Assembly (NCBI GenBank): GCA_963693315.1 | Contig: OY856186.1 | Span: 456,751,217-456,815,216 of the forward strand | From: Diogma glabrata | Taxonomy: Eukaryota; Arthropoda; Insecta; Diptera; Cylindrotomidae | Direction of reading: 5' to 3' | DNA: 64,000 nt | Shown: positions 4,520 through 27,870 of the stretch, in pieces | How positions within the stretch are numbered: the first letter of the stretch is position 1 | Layout of the letters: each line of letters opens with the position of its first letter | Made by a program: the position numbers and the translations under genes | The notes under the pieces: generated by a model | What the model saw: only the letters and a program-made list of their open reading frames with translations | Told to the model about the DNA's origin: nothing | Databases searched by the model: none

Positions 4520-4838
4520 TGGCGTTCATGCTCTATGTAGGAGAGTTGCCTAGCGAGTTTTTTACGCCCCAAACTAGCTGCAGTAAGTGGGGTCGAACGA
4601 TATATATACCTGCTGCTCCAGCACAAATACCAGAATTGTGCGCGTTTCTCGAGACAATATAAACGGATAGAAAAAAAAACACAAGTGAAATGAGTAGACT
4701 CTGACGACCCCCTTATGTGAAAGAACCACGATCACCGCGTCCAACCCCACCATTCACAGCACACATTCACACGCTCTCACACCTTATACACTCACATACA
4801 CACACATATACACAGACACACACACAACGGTCGATTAT

Positions 4839-5570
4839 TCATATAAATGCATAAATTTTCATCAACAGTCCGATTATTCTTTTCAATAATGCCATATATG
4901 TTACCAATGGAAGATTATACACAACTAATAGATTTGTTGAAGTGTAACTCACAAATATGAAGTAGTTTATGTAAATAGAGATGAAAATATAAGTTAAAAT
5001 TTTATTTGTAGAGTTAGCTTCGTACAGTTTATACCAAAACAAAAAAAACGGTTGGCCCAGCAATTTTCATGCTAACGATGGGAGCCATATCATTAAAGCT
5101 ATGTCGAGTTTATTTTTAAATTTATTTGTCAGCTTATAAAAATGAAAAATCATGCTCGGATAAAGTATAACAAATCGTATATGAAACCAGAAGTATTGTA
5201 AATGTAATAACAATATTATAGATTGCTCTTATATGTTTCACTTGTCGCATATCCGTCAACATTGAATTCTTTTCGATGTACTGACGATCGATCAATTTAC
5301 GTTCAACAACCGACTTCCTTAATTTATCCTGTTTGGTGTTCTTGATTTCATTTTCACTATTAATCGCTTAATAATTCGCATCGAATAAAATTAATTTTTC
5401 TAAGTCCGTCGTTTCGGGCTTATCACATAATTTTTGACTGTTTATGTTTAATTTTGCTAATAAATTATTGACATTTTTTTTCTGTAGAAGCTGCATTTTT
5501 TTTCCCGTTAAACTTCCATTATCATTATTTGTGCTATCAGGTACCTGATACGGAAACAACTTAATCCTGT
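4839..5570 (-). pseudogene. SOAT: Sterol O-acyltransferase (SOAT/ACAT)-like fragment inside copy D
   Basis: Read on the minus strand, 5559-5368 gives a polar, coil-prone stretch (KKMQLLQKKNVNN). After a stop (5370-5368) the same frame continues with ERKLIDRQYIEKN and MLTDMRQVKHIRAIYN, then a hydrophobic segment ending YTICYTLSEHD at about 5155. A frameshift follows, and 5063-4839 gives a second part with FFLFWYKLYEANST, a membrane-like segment and VVYNLPLVTYMALLKR. This order matches the N-terminal cytosolic coil, the [acidic/polar]-x-x-HIRxIY entry to the first membrane helix, and the YxLPxxS-x-x-EQ-x-RxxMK region of SOAT enzymes, which esterify sterols in the ER membrane. The fragment lacks the C-terminal MBOAT catalytic His region. 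About 700 bases run on with no intron-like gap. Stops and a frameshift make it non-functional. It is bounded by CA-rich repeats. Confidence 0.62.
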
Positions 5571-5895
5571 TATCAACTCAAAACGCATATTAAATCTCAC
5601 CATTAGTTATCATTTCCTTTTTTTGTCCTTTATTTTTTCCAACAATAGATTATTGCTAATAAATGACTAAATCCCATACAATATTGCACTAATTAAAATT
5701 TAAATTAAAAAAACATATCAATATTATGTGTCTACTCCTACCATGCCAATTTACAACCTGCAGATTTATTTACGGAAAGAAACAATAATCAAGGCTTTAA
5801 TTATAGGTTCATTCACCCACACATACACATCCCGTGCATACACGCACATGTACACACACTCACGCACCCATTCATACATACATACACACCCTCAC

Positions 5896-6083
5896 ATATA
5901 TATATATATATATATATATATATATATATATATATATATATATATATATATATATATATATATATATATATATATATATATATATATATATATATATATA
6001 TATATATATATATATATATATATATATATATATATATATATATATATATATATATATATATATATATATATATATATATATAT
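5896..6083. repeat. Pure (TA)n microsatellite
   Basis: About 94 uninterrupted TA dinucleotides. It sits inside the CA-rich stretch of copy D and directly continues a CA-type run, suggesting growth of TA from the degenerate CA repeat. Long open frames across it encode only alternating Tyr-Ile and are not genes. Confidence 0.97.
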
Positions 6084-24400: not shown

Positions 24401-25374
24401 AGGGGCGCGTTCTACAAGGCCTGGTTCAGGTATTTTCGTTTTGGAATATTTTATATGATGGCGTTCTCACGTGGTAAGAAATATTAATCCGACAGTCAAA
24501 ATCGAGAAAGTTAAAACATGACTTACCAAAATTGGGCTTGAGTTGAATGATCATAAGACCAACTTAGTACTTCCGAGCATCGAAAGAAATCAGATCCATC
24601 AATGATTTTATTAACTTTATAACTAGCTCAACTGCTCAACTTACACAAACTTAAGTACAAAAGAGAAACTACTATTAGATATAATCAACTCTGAAGTTCC
24701 GCATAGCGATTAGTCTGAGATGAAATATATTGAAATACCTGTTTTACGCCCCAAGTTCTGCCAAATATATCGTAAATACAGAAGAATTGTTATTATATTA
24801 TGACTACAATTATGTGTGTGTGTTTTTCATCAAAAACGTTTAAAACCCAAAGTTCCTGATCCTGATTTTTATCTGTGATACATTTAATTAAGGCACTCCT
24901 TTGCAGATGTAGAATATAGCACTCTCTCGTTTGTATAGTGTTACGTTGTCATGGTGTATTTACGTAGTGTTCTTCGTTCGTCTTGTCTGGGTCGTTTTAT
25001 TATTTGCGGTTTTGCGAAGTGATTGATTCCATTCATTTCTCCAGTATGCTGCTCAAAAAATCTTCGTTGGTTTGCAAACCTTCAGCATTTGACTACAACA
25101 GGCTCCGCGTTCTCGTACTTCATAACAAGCTTTTACGCCAGTGATCATCGGAATTTTATCATCCGATGGCGGAGGCTTCCCATTTCCGTCGCATTCTATA
25201 TATAAAAATCTTTGATAAATCCTTCGCTTGTTCGTCGGTCACTATCATTTTGTGTTTGCAGAGCCGTTACCTCTTTCGTTGTAATATCGATCAAAATCCT
25301 ACCCGCAATAACATTTACAGGAACACAGACAACGTTTGGCGCAGTATATGCGCAGCGATGTTGATCTATAGCCC
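21471..25374. other. Unassigned AT-rich DNA between G copies B and C
   Basis: No gene I can support. Short open frames at 21581-21775, 22012-22227, 22978-23293 and 23556-23780 show no motif I recognise. Around 23820-24060 the composition is less AT-rich and fragments such as SLANLRKEFHI can be read, vaguely transposase-like but too short to call. 24410-25370 is closer to coding composition (next entry). Confidence 0.5.
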
Positions 25375-25381
25375 GTTTCAA
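24920..25381 (-). pseudogene. Coding-like stretch next to copy C, unrecognised
   Basis: Minus strand 25381-25196 is an open frame reading RCAYTAPNVVCVPVNVIAG, then RILIDITTKEVTALQTQN. Further along, after stops, NQRRFFEQHTGEMNGINH and KRPRQDERRTLRKYTM can be read to about 24950. GC content is higher than the surroundings. It abuts the hairpin end of copy C at 25378. It may be a relic of a transposon or host gene; the family is unknown. Confidence 0.25.
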
Positions 25382-27870
25382 TGAAGCGCTGCTTCGTTGA
25401 TTAACAACGAAGTGACATAGCAGGTCGCGTACCTAGCGAGGTTGTATTAATAGCCCCAAACTAGGTGCAATCTATGGAATCAAGAAAGAAATACCTGCTG
25501 CTCCAGCACAAATAACTGAACTTGTACGCGTATCATGAGATAAGATCGGATGTAAAAAGAAAAGCAAGTGAACTAGGCAGACTCTGGCGACCCCCGTATG
25601 CGAAAGAACCACGATCACCACGTCCAACCCCTACAATTCACGCCACCCCCTCACACGCTCTCTCACGTCTCACACACTCATCCCGATTCAATGAAATGCG
25701 ACCGTACGATCATAGATAATCACGGTTGAATATTTATGTAATCATTGGTCAATTTTAGTACAGAGGATTGGGATTTTCGTTTAGCACAATTGATCTTAAA
25801 ATTCGGAAAATAAATGTTATTTGGGATTAATCTGATTTCCTCTGGGAAAATTCAGCCATTGTTTTAATTTATTATTATTTATTTATTATTGTTATAATAG
25901 TCATTGTTAAGGTAAACGTTATACTTTATTATATGTGTTCTACATAAATAACCGTACCCTAATACTATTATTAATATTATGTAATTCGATATCGTTTATT
26001 TTTTATTTTTTTTTTTAAACGCCTTAAAGTACGACAAGATCGTGACAACAATATTGAAAGTTATTTATATGGTTGAAAATTTCACAGTTGTAGTAGTCAT
26101 ATAATAATTTTGACACACAATTATAACCGGCAAAGGAATTACGGTCTAAGCCAAGACACACTGAAAATTTCCTTTCCTTTTTTTTGTTGGTAAAAAAAAA
26201 TATCGAAAATTGGCAGTGAGTTTCCAGTCAATGATAGTTTAAGTCAAATCTAAAATTCTAATTTTGTTTTTGTATGTTTCCGTTTAAAATATCGTGAAAT
26301 ACAGAGGCAATTATCCATCAATAGTTAATAAGGAATTCACAAATAAAATTTAAAGTTTTAAGCTGAAAACTATGCTAAGAAATGTTTCGTAGTGAATAGG
26401 TATAACCCTATCCATATCAGTACCATATTGTCGGAAGGAGGACGTGCAACCCTGAATAACATCATCAAATAAAATTGTTCCATGTCACATATAATCAAAT
26501 CTCCGTTTTAACAGTTCCACTAAATATCTGATAATCCATATCCAAATGCAGACGCCGCTATCTTTAATTCATTTTTATCTATATATAAATGAAGTGCAAT
26601 ATTGACCTTGATTCACAAACACGCATCACACGAACCCCCCCACATACTCACACACATATACACACGTATCAATACTCATTCATACATCTAATTTAAAAAT
26701 AAAATGGCATATGACTCACCCCATAGCTTAGCCAGATCCCCTCCAGTAGCTCCATATTAACCGCTCATCCTCATATAATTCATCGGTTGATAAACTCGGG
26801 ACTCAGGAATACGACGACGATGGAAAAATTATTGCAACACAAACAAACGTGTTGATGATCATTGATAATTGTTTAGTTTCCCCCTTTTTCCTGGTTACCG
26901 GAAAATGTATCACAATATTCGATAGGAATGATGATGAACACGAATAATTACCAAAAAAACAAAATGGTTGTCCCGGAAACATGTTCAGACAGTCAGCACT
27001 CCGGATATACTTGTAGCATGCGGTCAAGTAATTTGCACTCCAGCACACAATTTATCTTTCTGACCCAACCACTGACTCGCCTCGCCCTACTATCGGTGTT
27101 AACCGGAAGCGCAACCAAGATCTTGTATAGAGGAACTTAGGATTTGATTGCGGATCTCCGAATTTCAATAAGCAATCGATATAATTTAAATTATGTGTTT
27201 CTTTATTATATAACAGCCTATTTTATTTTTTTGTTAAATTTAATTTTTCTTTCTTATACATAGACATTGGCAATTTATACCATCACAGAATTTACACTAA
27301 TTTTACTTTATATGGGAATGCAAATTGTTGATTATAGATCTATTACCACAGTTATAGCAAACAAATATTGTCACGGTAATTTAGCATTCTATTTTCAATA
27401 ATGTAATAATATGATTTATTATTTGAACTAACACGTCACAAGCAAAGATAATTTTTTTTAATTAAACTAATTTATTTTATAAACACAAAATTTTATCATT
27501 AGCCATTCCATTGTACTGGCAAAAAAAAATAGTTATAACCAAAACAAAAATGGTAGGTGACTTGATGAGCGTTTCAAATAATTTTTTGGCCTCGTATTAT
27601 CTTAAAACAAAATGCCTTACCTTTTGGTTATAACTCTGGGTGTTGATTTTTTTTCGGATTTAATCTTTCCTTCTTTAAATATTAGCTCCATTAATTTTCT
27701 TTATTTTTGTCATCACAAATTAACTCGCTCAGAAAACTCAACACCTAGGTGTCAGAATCACGTAAACAGCTGATACATTTTCAGATACCAATTCGACTAA
27801 GAGGGCCTCTATACGCGGCTAGGCGTATTTATAGGCAAAGCTAGCGACCGTTTTTACATCACAAATCAAT
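25375..27870 (+). mobile_element. Repeat family G, copy C
   Basis: Begins with the hairpin end tcaatgaagcgctgcttcg (25377), then agcaggtcgcg, ctgctgctccagcacaaat (about 25497) and gactctggcgacccccgta (about 25582), then CA-rich sequence at 25640-25690. A variable interior runs 25700-26610, followed by CA-rich sequence at 26615-26690, a block starting atgactcaccccata (26709) and running to about 27140, AT-rich sequence, and the TATA end in reverse near 27799-27836. The orientation matches copy D. Copy C preserves both ends and so best defines the element, at about 2.5 kb. No mobility protein is encoded. Confidence 0.65.
26360..26590 (-). pseudogene. Coding-like fragment in the interior of copy C (unrecognised)
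   Basis: On the minus strand one frame reads ELKIAASAFGYGLSDIF at about 26560-26510, and after a shift a second frame reads MEQFYLMMLFRVARPPSDN, then MVLIWIGLYLFTTKHF to about 26365: a membrane-protein-like sequence. It reads towards the hairpin end, as the captured fragments in B and D do. The source gene is not recognised; several stops and shifts. Confidence 0.3.

Follow-up and report, generated by a model that had tools for sequence, protein, structure and literature searches.

The sequence studied is a 64,000-nt window of the Diogma glabrata genome; matches elsewhere in the genome are given by contig labels such as C1 and C3. The window holds five copies (A–E) of one repeat, linked to one another by self-BLAST, and the blocks they share are far above chance in both self-BLAST and end profiles. 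Copy A is a complete unit (7414–11162, plus strand; 5′- and 3′-end profiles) inside copy D, flanked by an exact target site duplication (TSD), AATT, at 7410–7413 and 11163–11166. On the same strand it carries a TATA box with the initiator CTCTTA (7913–7949), a splice-donor-like GTGAGT at which the TG-rich zone starts (9763–9768), an interior resembling the HPS5 beta-propeller (approximately 10250–10430), which recurs in an element nested in locus L028, and a conserved tail core, GGGGGTCGCCAGAGTC (10947–10962; sequence and alignment). Copy B, also complete by its end profiles (18411–21468, plus strand), has the flanks AATC and GATC (one mismatch), a TATA box and initiator at 18731–18768, a GTGAGT at 20019–20024, and a sense meckelin (TMEM67) fragment at 20475–20986 (PF09773) that spans two frames (20475–20762 and 20756–20986). 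Copy C (25377–28425, minus strand; end profiles) is complete with a mutated 3′ terminus. Its upstream, U3-like module (27790–28425) ends at the initiator, where most of the best genome matches stop, and comprises the TATA box and CTCTTAGTCG initiator (27794–27833); the GTGAGT (26714–26719), a sense PDCD6/ALG-2-like EF-hand fragment (approximately 25680–26600; DNA match to the interior of L020) and the tail core (25580–25595; sequence and alignment) follow on the same strand.

Copy D, which the initial annotation had taken as one copy at 4520–7140, is split: its 5′ terminal piece (11167–11328, minus strand; end profiles) was cut off from the rest by the insertion of A, so that its 5′ end lies at 11328. 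The remainder (4549–7413, minus strand; self-BLAST and profile) has an extreme 3′ end that is not recognizable, a GTGAGT at 6092–6097, and a sense, intronless fragment of sterol O-acyltransferase (SOAT) at 5140–5499. Copy E had been called partial, and indeed its 3′ part alone (38576–38872, plus strand) was matched by the 3′-end profile. The copies annotated initially thus exist, with true 5′ ends of A, B and C 0.3–0.6 kb further out than had been drawn. The gactcacccc/ggggtgagtc block was likewise present and is now read as a splice-donor-like site, GG|GTGAGT. At gathering thresholds, no known RNA family was matched anywhere in the window.

The repeats form a genuine, mobile family. Its units extend from |TGTWAYGAAG at the 5′ end to CTTCATTACA| at the 3′ end and measure 2.1–3.7 kb; the termini, TGT...ACA, form an inverted repeat of ∼10 bp, per-position identity falling beyond position 10. 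Exact 4-bp TSDs were present at the expected register in 13 of 19 copies, compared with 1 match in 228 at 12 shifted registers; where a single exact motif match alone had fixed the 5′ end, exact TSDs were counted by hand in 6 of 11. The duplicated sequences varied (ACTT, ATGT, GTCG, CAGT, TTGG, ATTT and others). The 16-mer of the tail occurs 1,918 times in the genome (reversed control, 0), and about two thousand copies are recognizable. A 3′-end profile built from A–E, among others, matched all five window copies (E ≤ 2e-57), and a 5′-end profile located that end in A, B, C and D. Further counts refer to a set of 37 units, namely A–E and 32 fetched copies (L-numbered loci). The hairpin previously noticed at the end proved real: its stem, CTTCRTTG/CAAYGAAG, was parsed in 26 of the 37 (≤2 mismatches allowed per arm), Watson-Crick pairing was kept at 184 of 208 positions, and the variable pair was G-C in 16 units, A-T in seven and mismatched in three.

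A typical unit consists of an upstream module of 0.35–0.65 kb containing the TATA box and initiator, a leader, the splice-donor-like GG|GTGAGT, and the TG-rich zone in which the variable interior lies. The GG|GTGAGT site was found in 26 of 37 units by a consensus search allowing one mismatch, and conservation of its core columns is partly circular because the sites were collected in this way. Some units are empty or nearly so (L022, the second unit of L040, and L010). The search for a larger or coding unit among the fetched loci led to a 4.9-kb unit nested in L028, whose leader contains a repetitive stretch and in which no transposase-like frame was recognized.

Judged by sequence similarity, the interiors include pieces of host genes: SOAT in D and meckelin in B, both as anticipated, a PDCD6-like gene in C, and glutathione peroxidase in other copies. 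The coding-like piece suspected in C is therefore of host origin, and that in A probably so; the latter is perhaps a piece of HPS5. The interior of A matches that of the element nested in L028 (E 8e-16), which in turn matched PF23756 at E 0.0032, below the cut-off of that family, while A's own frame gave no match. Overall, 30 frames from interiors or elsewhere in the window were picked by eye for comparison with Pfam, of which five matched at the thresholds used; one of the five (E 0.067) was not believed, and the remaining frames gave no match. Antisense frames were read by eye alone, and for the interior frame of L009 no relative was found. Cellular gene fragments were present in other genome copies with the same ends. 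Searches with the captured genes gave at least 151 matches to SOAT (from 150 scored of 446 candidates), 56 to PDCD6, 47 to meckelin and 36 to glutathione peroxidase, all counts including gene exons and double hits. The core of the initial annotation, conserved ends with interchangeable interiors drawn from unrelated cellular genes, was accordingly upheld.

The captured pieces lack introns. The SOAT parent gene, which was identified in the same genome, has two GT-AG introns, each about 70 bp long, that are absent from the copies, as are a 7.3-kb intron of the meckelin parent gene (e.g., C3:231464837–231465592 covers profile positions 441–689 in 756 bp) and a 25-kb intron of the glutathione peroxidase parent gene (e.g., C3:19395367–19395666 covers positions 2–100 in 300 bp). 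For every gene open to this test, three in all, introns of the intact gene in the same genome are thus missing. The pieces therefore stem from spliced mRNA, which indicates copying from RNA rather than from DNA. The original proposal, Pack-MULE- or Helitron-like capture of genomic DNA, accounts for conserved ends with exchangeable host-gene interiors, as seen in Pack-TIR and Pack-MULE elements. These, however, hold DNA-level copies, and DNA capture would have kept the introns. The ends and TSD also differ from both classes: Helitrons have TC...CTRR ends and no target duplication, and MULEs have long inverted repeats and an 8–9-bp duplication, whereas this family has TGT...ACA, a short inverted repeat and a 4-bp TSD. 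Genomic capture is therefore rejected as highly improbable. According to its account of the screening, an animal Pack-TIR survey discarded intronless cases; it reports none in insect reference genomes and one family, Ssk-FB4, in fly populations (PMC8277862).

A piece of SOAT, meckelin, a PDCD6-like gene or peroxidase was assigned in 10 of the 37 units, and in all 10 it lies in sense; 26 have no assigned cargo. Likewise, of 11 SOAT matches on C1 up to 35.5 Mb, six were seen by eye to lie within 1 kb of an exact tail, all in sense, although for one of the six (L040) the tail belongs to a neighboring unit. Taken alone, this bias is weak because about five independent captures were seen. An upstream SOAT exon was not found within 3 kb upstream, which leaves that capture without a defined 5′ limit. 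As a gauge of selection on the captured frames, the average pN/pS among 11 of 14 SOAT copies (L028, L050 and L051 left out) was 0.56, a value biased low, as nine of the 11 were fetched as top protein hits. That processed pseudogenes made by a LINE landed in the element and then multiplied along with it would explain the intronless fragments, and LINE-like frames were read by eye near some units (L022). Nevertheless, the SOAT match ends within coding sequence with no poly(A) seen at that point, and pieces of unrelated genes share one donor-to-tail zone, in sense, in the assigned units, which makes this origin very unlikely.

Near-identical upstream modules sit on unrelated leaders, with the junction at the initiator. 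When the upstream module of C was used as query, 31 of the 40 best genome matches (one being the query itself) stopped at 628–636 of 661; the query extends just 29 nt beyond the initiator, so that this stop is judged on few bases. It is backed by longer leaders: C and L024 are 94.5% identical over 632 nt upstream while their leaders gave no match, upstream modules matched in 137 of 190 pairwise comparisons and leaders in 11 of 136, and the match between L053 and L054 breaks at the initiator in the same way. Together, intronless cargo and the break at the initiator favor an RNA stage, template switching and LTR-like integration over DNA capture of the Pack-MULE or Helitron type.

The earlier statement that the ends fit no known class was too strong, in that TGTNR termini with a 4-bp TSD occur in both LTR elements and Ginger transposons (PMC2836005). 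The units could thus be a Ginger-like cut-and-paste transposon whose internal breaks were repaired with reverse-transcribed spliced mRNA and whose promoters were swapped by DNA recombination. The TGTWAYGAAG starts and 4-bp TSDs agree with Ginger1 and Ginger2 (PMC2836005), the TG-rich zone could be break-prone, and capture of spliced mRNA at double-strand breaks through reverse transcription products is documented in mouse zygotes (PMC4516963). There, however, insertion is a one-off event, whereas here an element with a fixed capture zone multiplies. Moreover, the inverted repeat is about 10 bp rather than 40–270 bp (Ginger1) or 50–180 bp (Ginger2), the CCGG/CCGT or RTATAY targets are absent from TSDs and flank composition, the 31 of 40 breaks at the initiator are not predicted by DNA recombination, and the assigned pieces are all in sense. 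This origin is considered unlikely. No Gypsy-integrase-like transposase gene was recognized as cargo in the 37 units; Gypsy-like frames are present in L026 and look nested.

By far the most Gypsy LTRs likewise end in TGTNR (PMC2836005), and Gypsy and BEL elements, including their solo LTRs, share with these units TGTNR...ACA-type (TG...CA) ends, a TSD in the 4–6-bp class, here 4 bp, and an internal TATA box and initiator with what would be a U3/R-like boundary. The units may be solo LTRs (U3-R-U5) left by an ordinary LTR retrotransposon whose U5 is very long and took in host mRNA during strong-stop synthesis, nearly all proviruses having recombined; as a special case of an RNA stage, this is possible but doubtful. 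It would fit a SOAT pair at C1:132.61/132.63 Mb, 18.7 kb apart in the same orientation and 95.9% identical over 512 nt, slightly above its 86–95% to ten other copies. It would also fit GGGG being commoner just before TGTWAYGAAG than in the reversed control (62 + 41 versus 8 + 15), although a reversed motif is an unfair control for a repeat end, and by eye no recurrent G-rich context was seen there in the listed places. That SOAT pair is, however, the sole same-orientation pair <20 kb apart found by eye in the SOAT list (150 of 446 candidates scored).

In a normal LTR element one expects a pair of near-identical units together with a primer site and a polypurine tract, and none was convincing among the scored or listed places. 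Of 36 sampled 3′ ends, two had TGG no more than 5 nt away, once inside a TSD, and a purine run preceded the 5′ end in none of 19. Several candidates were rejected: a pair 14.8 kb apart among the 40 upstream-module matches has modules 94% alike on unrelated leaders; a tail pair in L022 (94%) belongs to a tandem segment duplication; the tails at C1:31.31/31.32 Mb, 8.0 kb apart and the one same-orientation pair <20 kb among the 100 tail places examined first (of 1,918), are 81% alike; and in the tail core, considered as a tRNA primer site, the base preceding GGGGG varies in the alignment. An autonomous relative with the same ends, the search for which had been suggested, was not convincingly seen in what could be checked.

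We therefore favor, with a probability of roughly 0.58, the view that these mobile units form a large, non-autonomous family that amplifies by way of an RNA stage. Transcription would start at the initiator, CTCTTAGTC, and a reverse transcriptase provided in trans would copy the transcripts; no such enzyme, integrase or autonomous copy could be linked to the family. In the TG-rich zone, the reverse transcriptase would switch to a spliced mRNA of the host packaged alongside and then return, so that the host piece ends up flanked by two TG tracts. At the 5′ end of the RNA, the growing strand would move to another template bearing an upstream module, for which the U3/R transfer of LTR elements serves as a model, and an integrase would insert the product with a 4-bp stagger. 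Each gene piece was probably captured in one or a few events and then spread as a passenger, because subfamilies have frame-breaking changes in common. Maize Bs1 likewise took up spliced host mRNA, for which template switching has been modeled (PMC5408686). Unlike in Bs1 and LTR elements, convincing paired units, a primer site, a polypurine tract and gag-pol were not seen here, the capture shares its unit with the promoter, and several genes are involved, each in tens or more of copies. More tentatively still, the family may be a retroelement that stands on its own and lacks long terminal repeats, each copy being one unit whose ends resemble those of LTRs. Strand transfer at the point where transcription starts might restore the promoter of such a unit, the TG-rich zone behind the splice donor might be a standing slot for spliced host mRNA, and promoter, leader and cargo might be separately exchangeable modules.

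Published instances of mobile elements taking up spliced host mRNA appear to be mostly single cases. Here, one family holds pieces of at least four, probably five, genes, each now in tens or more of copies and all in one zone behind the family's own promoter and splice-donor-like site. The family is thus a natural setting in which to study the entry of cargo into retroelements and the reason for the use of TG-rich sequence, and to ask if exons captured behind a promoter and splice donor yield new transcripts. The near-identical upstream modules on unrelated leaders would allow strand transfers at the start of transcription to be counted by the traces they leave.

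The blocks that the initial annotation had described as shared among window copies D, A, B, C and E (window, C1:456751217-456815216) were recovered by self-BLAST. In the assembly searched (1.33 Gb, 1,788 contigs), the tail 16-mer GACTCTGGCGACCCCC occurred 970 + 948 times and a reversed control 0 + 0 times. The first 32 places of the tail list, taken content-blind in the order of contig C1 (L009-L040), were combined with the five window copies into a sample of 37 units. The units are 2.1-3.7 kb long. Alignment placed the 3′ terminus directly after ...CTTCRTTG-loop-CAAYGAAGCAGCGCTTCATTACA, beyond which similarity ceased, and the 5′ terminus directly before TGTWAYGAAG, ∼0.3-0.6 kb 5′ of the TATA box. 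A 4-bp target duplication was exact in 13 of 19 copies for which both termini were assigned (12/18 before L020 was added), compared with 1/228 matches across 12 shifted registers, a figure to be read in light of the fact that the flank match had guided the initial choice of some 5′ ends. By our count, it was exact in 6 of the 11 copies with a single exact match to the 5′ motif. The duplication was one base off in B, L016, and L024 and absent in L011, C, and L040. The termini form an inverted repeat of ∼10 bp (per-position matches of 19, 17, 17, 7, 15, 9, 19, 16, 14, and 19 of 19, mostly low thereafter). In the window, A is nested in D, with AATT duplicated; the 5′ end of D, proposed to lie near 7140, must therefore be moved to 11328. 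The 5′ insertion point of D at 11328 falls within a LINE-like frame (11248-11550; by eye, without a Pfam match).

The window also holds other structures. A separate 6.8-kb structure (49761-56572) has long inverted ends (49761-50251 versus 56078-56572, 94% by self-BLAST) and an inner inverted pair (50296-50440 versus 55851-55996, 97% by self-BLAST); it contains two minus-strand frames (50968-51231 and 51232-51504), transposase-like by eye but matching no Pfam family, and a 614-bp tandem duplication of 98.7% identity (53376-54596). A foldback-like structure at 13902-15361 comprises a 430-bp inverted repeat, 95% identical, around a 0.6-kb spacer, and a frame at 36027-36401 resembles a non-LTR retroelement endonuclease (PF14529, E 0.04, below cut-off).

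By our reading, a CTCTTA-type initiator lies 29-32 nt 3′ of the TATA box in 18/37 units. The leader that follows measures 0.33-1.8 kb (17 units; the initiators of L024 and D were placed by hand) and terminates in ATGGG/GTGAGT, a site found in 26 of the 37 units by a consensus search allowing one mismatch and looking, as far as sequence goes, like a strong 5′ splice site. TG-rich tracts follow this site and also precede the tail; their TG+GT dinucleotide fractions (0.256 and 0.325; 25 of the 26 units with the site) compare with 0.127 in interiors (23 units) and 0.128 in leader ends. L022 and one of the units of L040, the second, have little or no interior separating donor, TG tract, and tail, and L010 comes close to this state, which places the interiors within the TG-rich zone. 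L022 (∼1-6280, element orientation) carries a 3.3-kb tandem segment duplication, ∼92-93% identical, with near-empty units adjoining a LINE-like frame; in D, 188 bp of uninterrupted (AT)n (5896-6083) closely follow the splice-donor-like site, at the start of the TG-rich zone.

Cargo could be assigned in 11/37 units. SOAT pieces occupy D, L016, L028, and L040; the resemblance proposed for D was confirmed by an intact gene, L041 (SOAT1, E 9e-64; MBOAT, E 2.7e-27), with 87-92% DNA identity to D, and the L040 fragment matched SOAT1 weakly (E 0.025-0.033). The meckelin-like interior of B matched PF09773 (E 4.9e-18 and 2.7e-23), and the coding-like piece in C proved PDCD6/ALG-2-like (DNA match to L020; 15/19 residues identical to a PDCD6 chain), as are the interiors of L020, L032 (match to PDCD6, E 7.6e-12), and L033. 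The interior of L024 resembles glutathione peroxidase (E 1.4e-5, 25 bits versus a cut-off of 27). The eleventh assignment, A, is weak: the unit that lies nested within L028 shares its coding-like piece (E 8e-16), but the match of that nested piece to the HPS5 propeller is below cut-off (E 0.0032).

Exon structure indicates that the captured host pieces derive from spliced mRNA. In the SOAT parent L041 (C3:62536600-62539400), exons 756-815, 890-1226, and 1299 onward are separated by GT-AG introns; in captured copies, the three exons are fused (e.g., L043, 152-210, 214-550, and 551-879). In the meckelin parent, 7.3 kb separates the exons for profile positions 355-483 and 492-825, and captured meckelin is uninterrupted (e.g., C3:231464837-231465592, profile 441-689). 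One intact-looking glutathione peroxidase gene has 25 kb between exons 1-51 and 47-108, and another has an exon 1-75; captured peroxidase is again uninterrupted (e.g., C3:19395367-19395666, 2-100). The comparison covers these three genes, since the best genome match for PDCD6 spans the whole query in one exon. Unit membership of genome-wide matches was checked for the fetched copies and for seven other hits, five of SOAT and two of peroxidase (C1:20473636, C1:22341403), whose coordinates were compared with the tail list; these seven lie near tails, all in sense orientation.

The upstream module, between 5′ end and initiator, is re-paired with different leaders. C and L024 are 94.5% identical over 632 nt 5′ of the initiator, and their leaders have no detectable similarity; the same pattern was seen for C/L018 and L018/L024. 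Across the sample, pairwise matches numbered 137/190 for upstream modules and 11/136 for leaders. When the first 661 nt of C were used as the genome query and 40 of 1,871 candidates were scored, the match stopped at 628-636, the CTCTTAGTC initiator, in 31, with the query extending only 29 nt further; three stopped at 645-648, and six, including the query itself and L024, ran to the query end. In two neighbors at 419.26 and 419.28 Mb, compared with ∼0.5 kb of their leaders included, the break at the initiator is directly visible. Some leaders are distantly alike (B and D, 62.7% over 707 nt); leaders therefore have the appearance of long-standing lineages, with upstream modules having moved between them. 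Were DNA recombination the source of the exchange, no preference for the initiator would be expected, whereas a break at this position is explained if strand transfer is obligatory at the 5′ terminus of the RNA.

The most likely course comprises five steps. Sequence anatomy suggests that transcription would start at the initiator; intron loss, orientation, and breaks suggest that reverse transcription would follow in trans, that within the TG-rich zone the template would change to a host mRNA and then to the element again, and that the strand, on reaching the 5′ terminus of the RNA, would be transferred to the upstream module of another unit. Integrase-type insertion with a 4-bp stagger, again suggested by the anatomy, would complete the cycle.

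Among the hits checked, there was no convincing case of paired units of an ordinary LTR element, and the sampled ends showed neither primer site nor polypurine tract; the units would therefore be either self-standing or solo LTRs of a family that has lost its complete members or has them outside the sample. Two SOAT-carrying copies (L058/L059, C1:132614700-132633980), 18.7 kb apart in one orientation and 95.9% identical over 512 nt (other copies, 86-95%), could represent an LTR pair or have arisen by local duplication. Gypsy pol-, mariner transposase-, and reverse transcriptase-like frames (by eye) within or beside L026, L034, and L035 presumably belong to nested or neighboring elements. The comparison literature comprised parts of PMC2836005, PMC12440569, PMC4516963, PMC8277862, and PMC5408686; Ginger, as characterized in the relevant part of PMC2836005, was rejected on inverted-repeat length (∼10 bp here) and target. 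No title or abstract start surfaced by the literature search described the element, which is not to claim that it is unpublished.

Once captured, the host pieces appear to have been amplified as passengers of the element. SOAT had at least 151 genome matches (150 of 446 candidates scored), PDCD6 56, meckelin 47, and peroxidase 36, counts that include exons of the genes themselves and loci matched twice. The same codon is TGA in five aligned SOAT copies (L042, L044, L045, L046, and L047), TAG occurs in most of the peroxidase matches that look captured, and the frame is broken near profile position 609/611 in nine or more meckelin loci (B breaks at 578/583), which argues for founders that were, at least in part, non-coding. 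Such frame-breaking changes, shared within the SOAT, peroxidase, and meckelin subfamilies, could serve to date bursts of the element.
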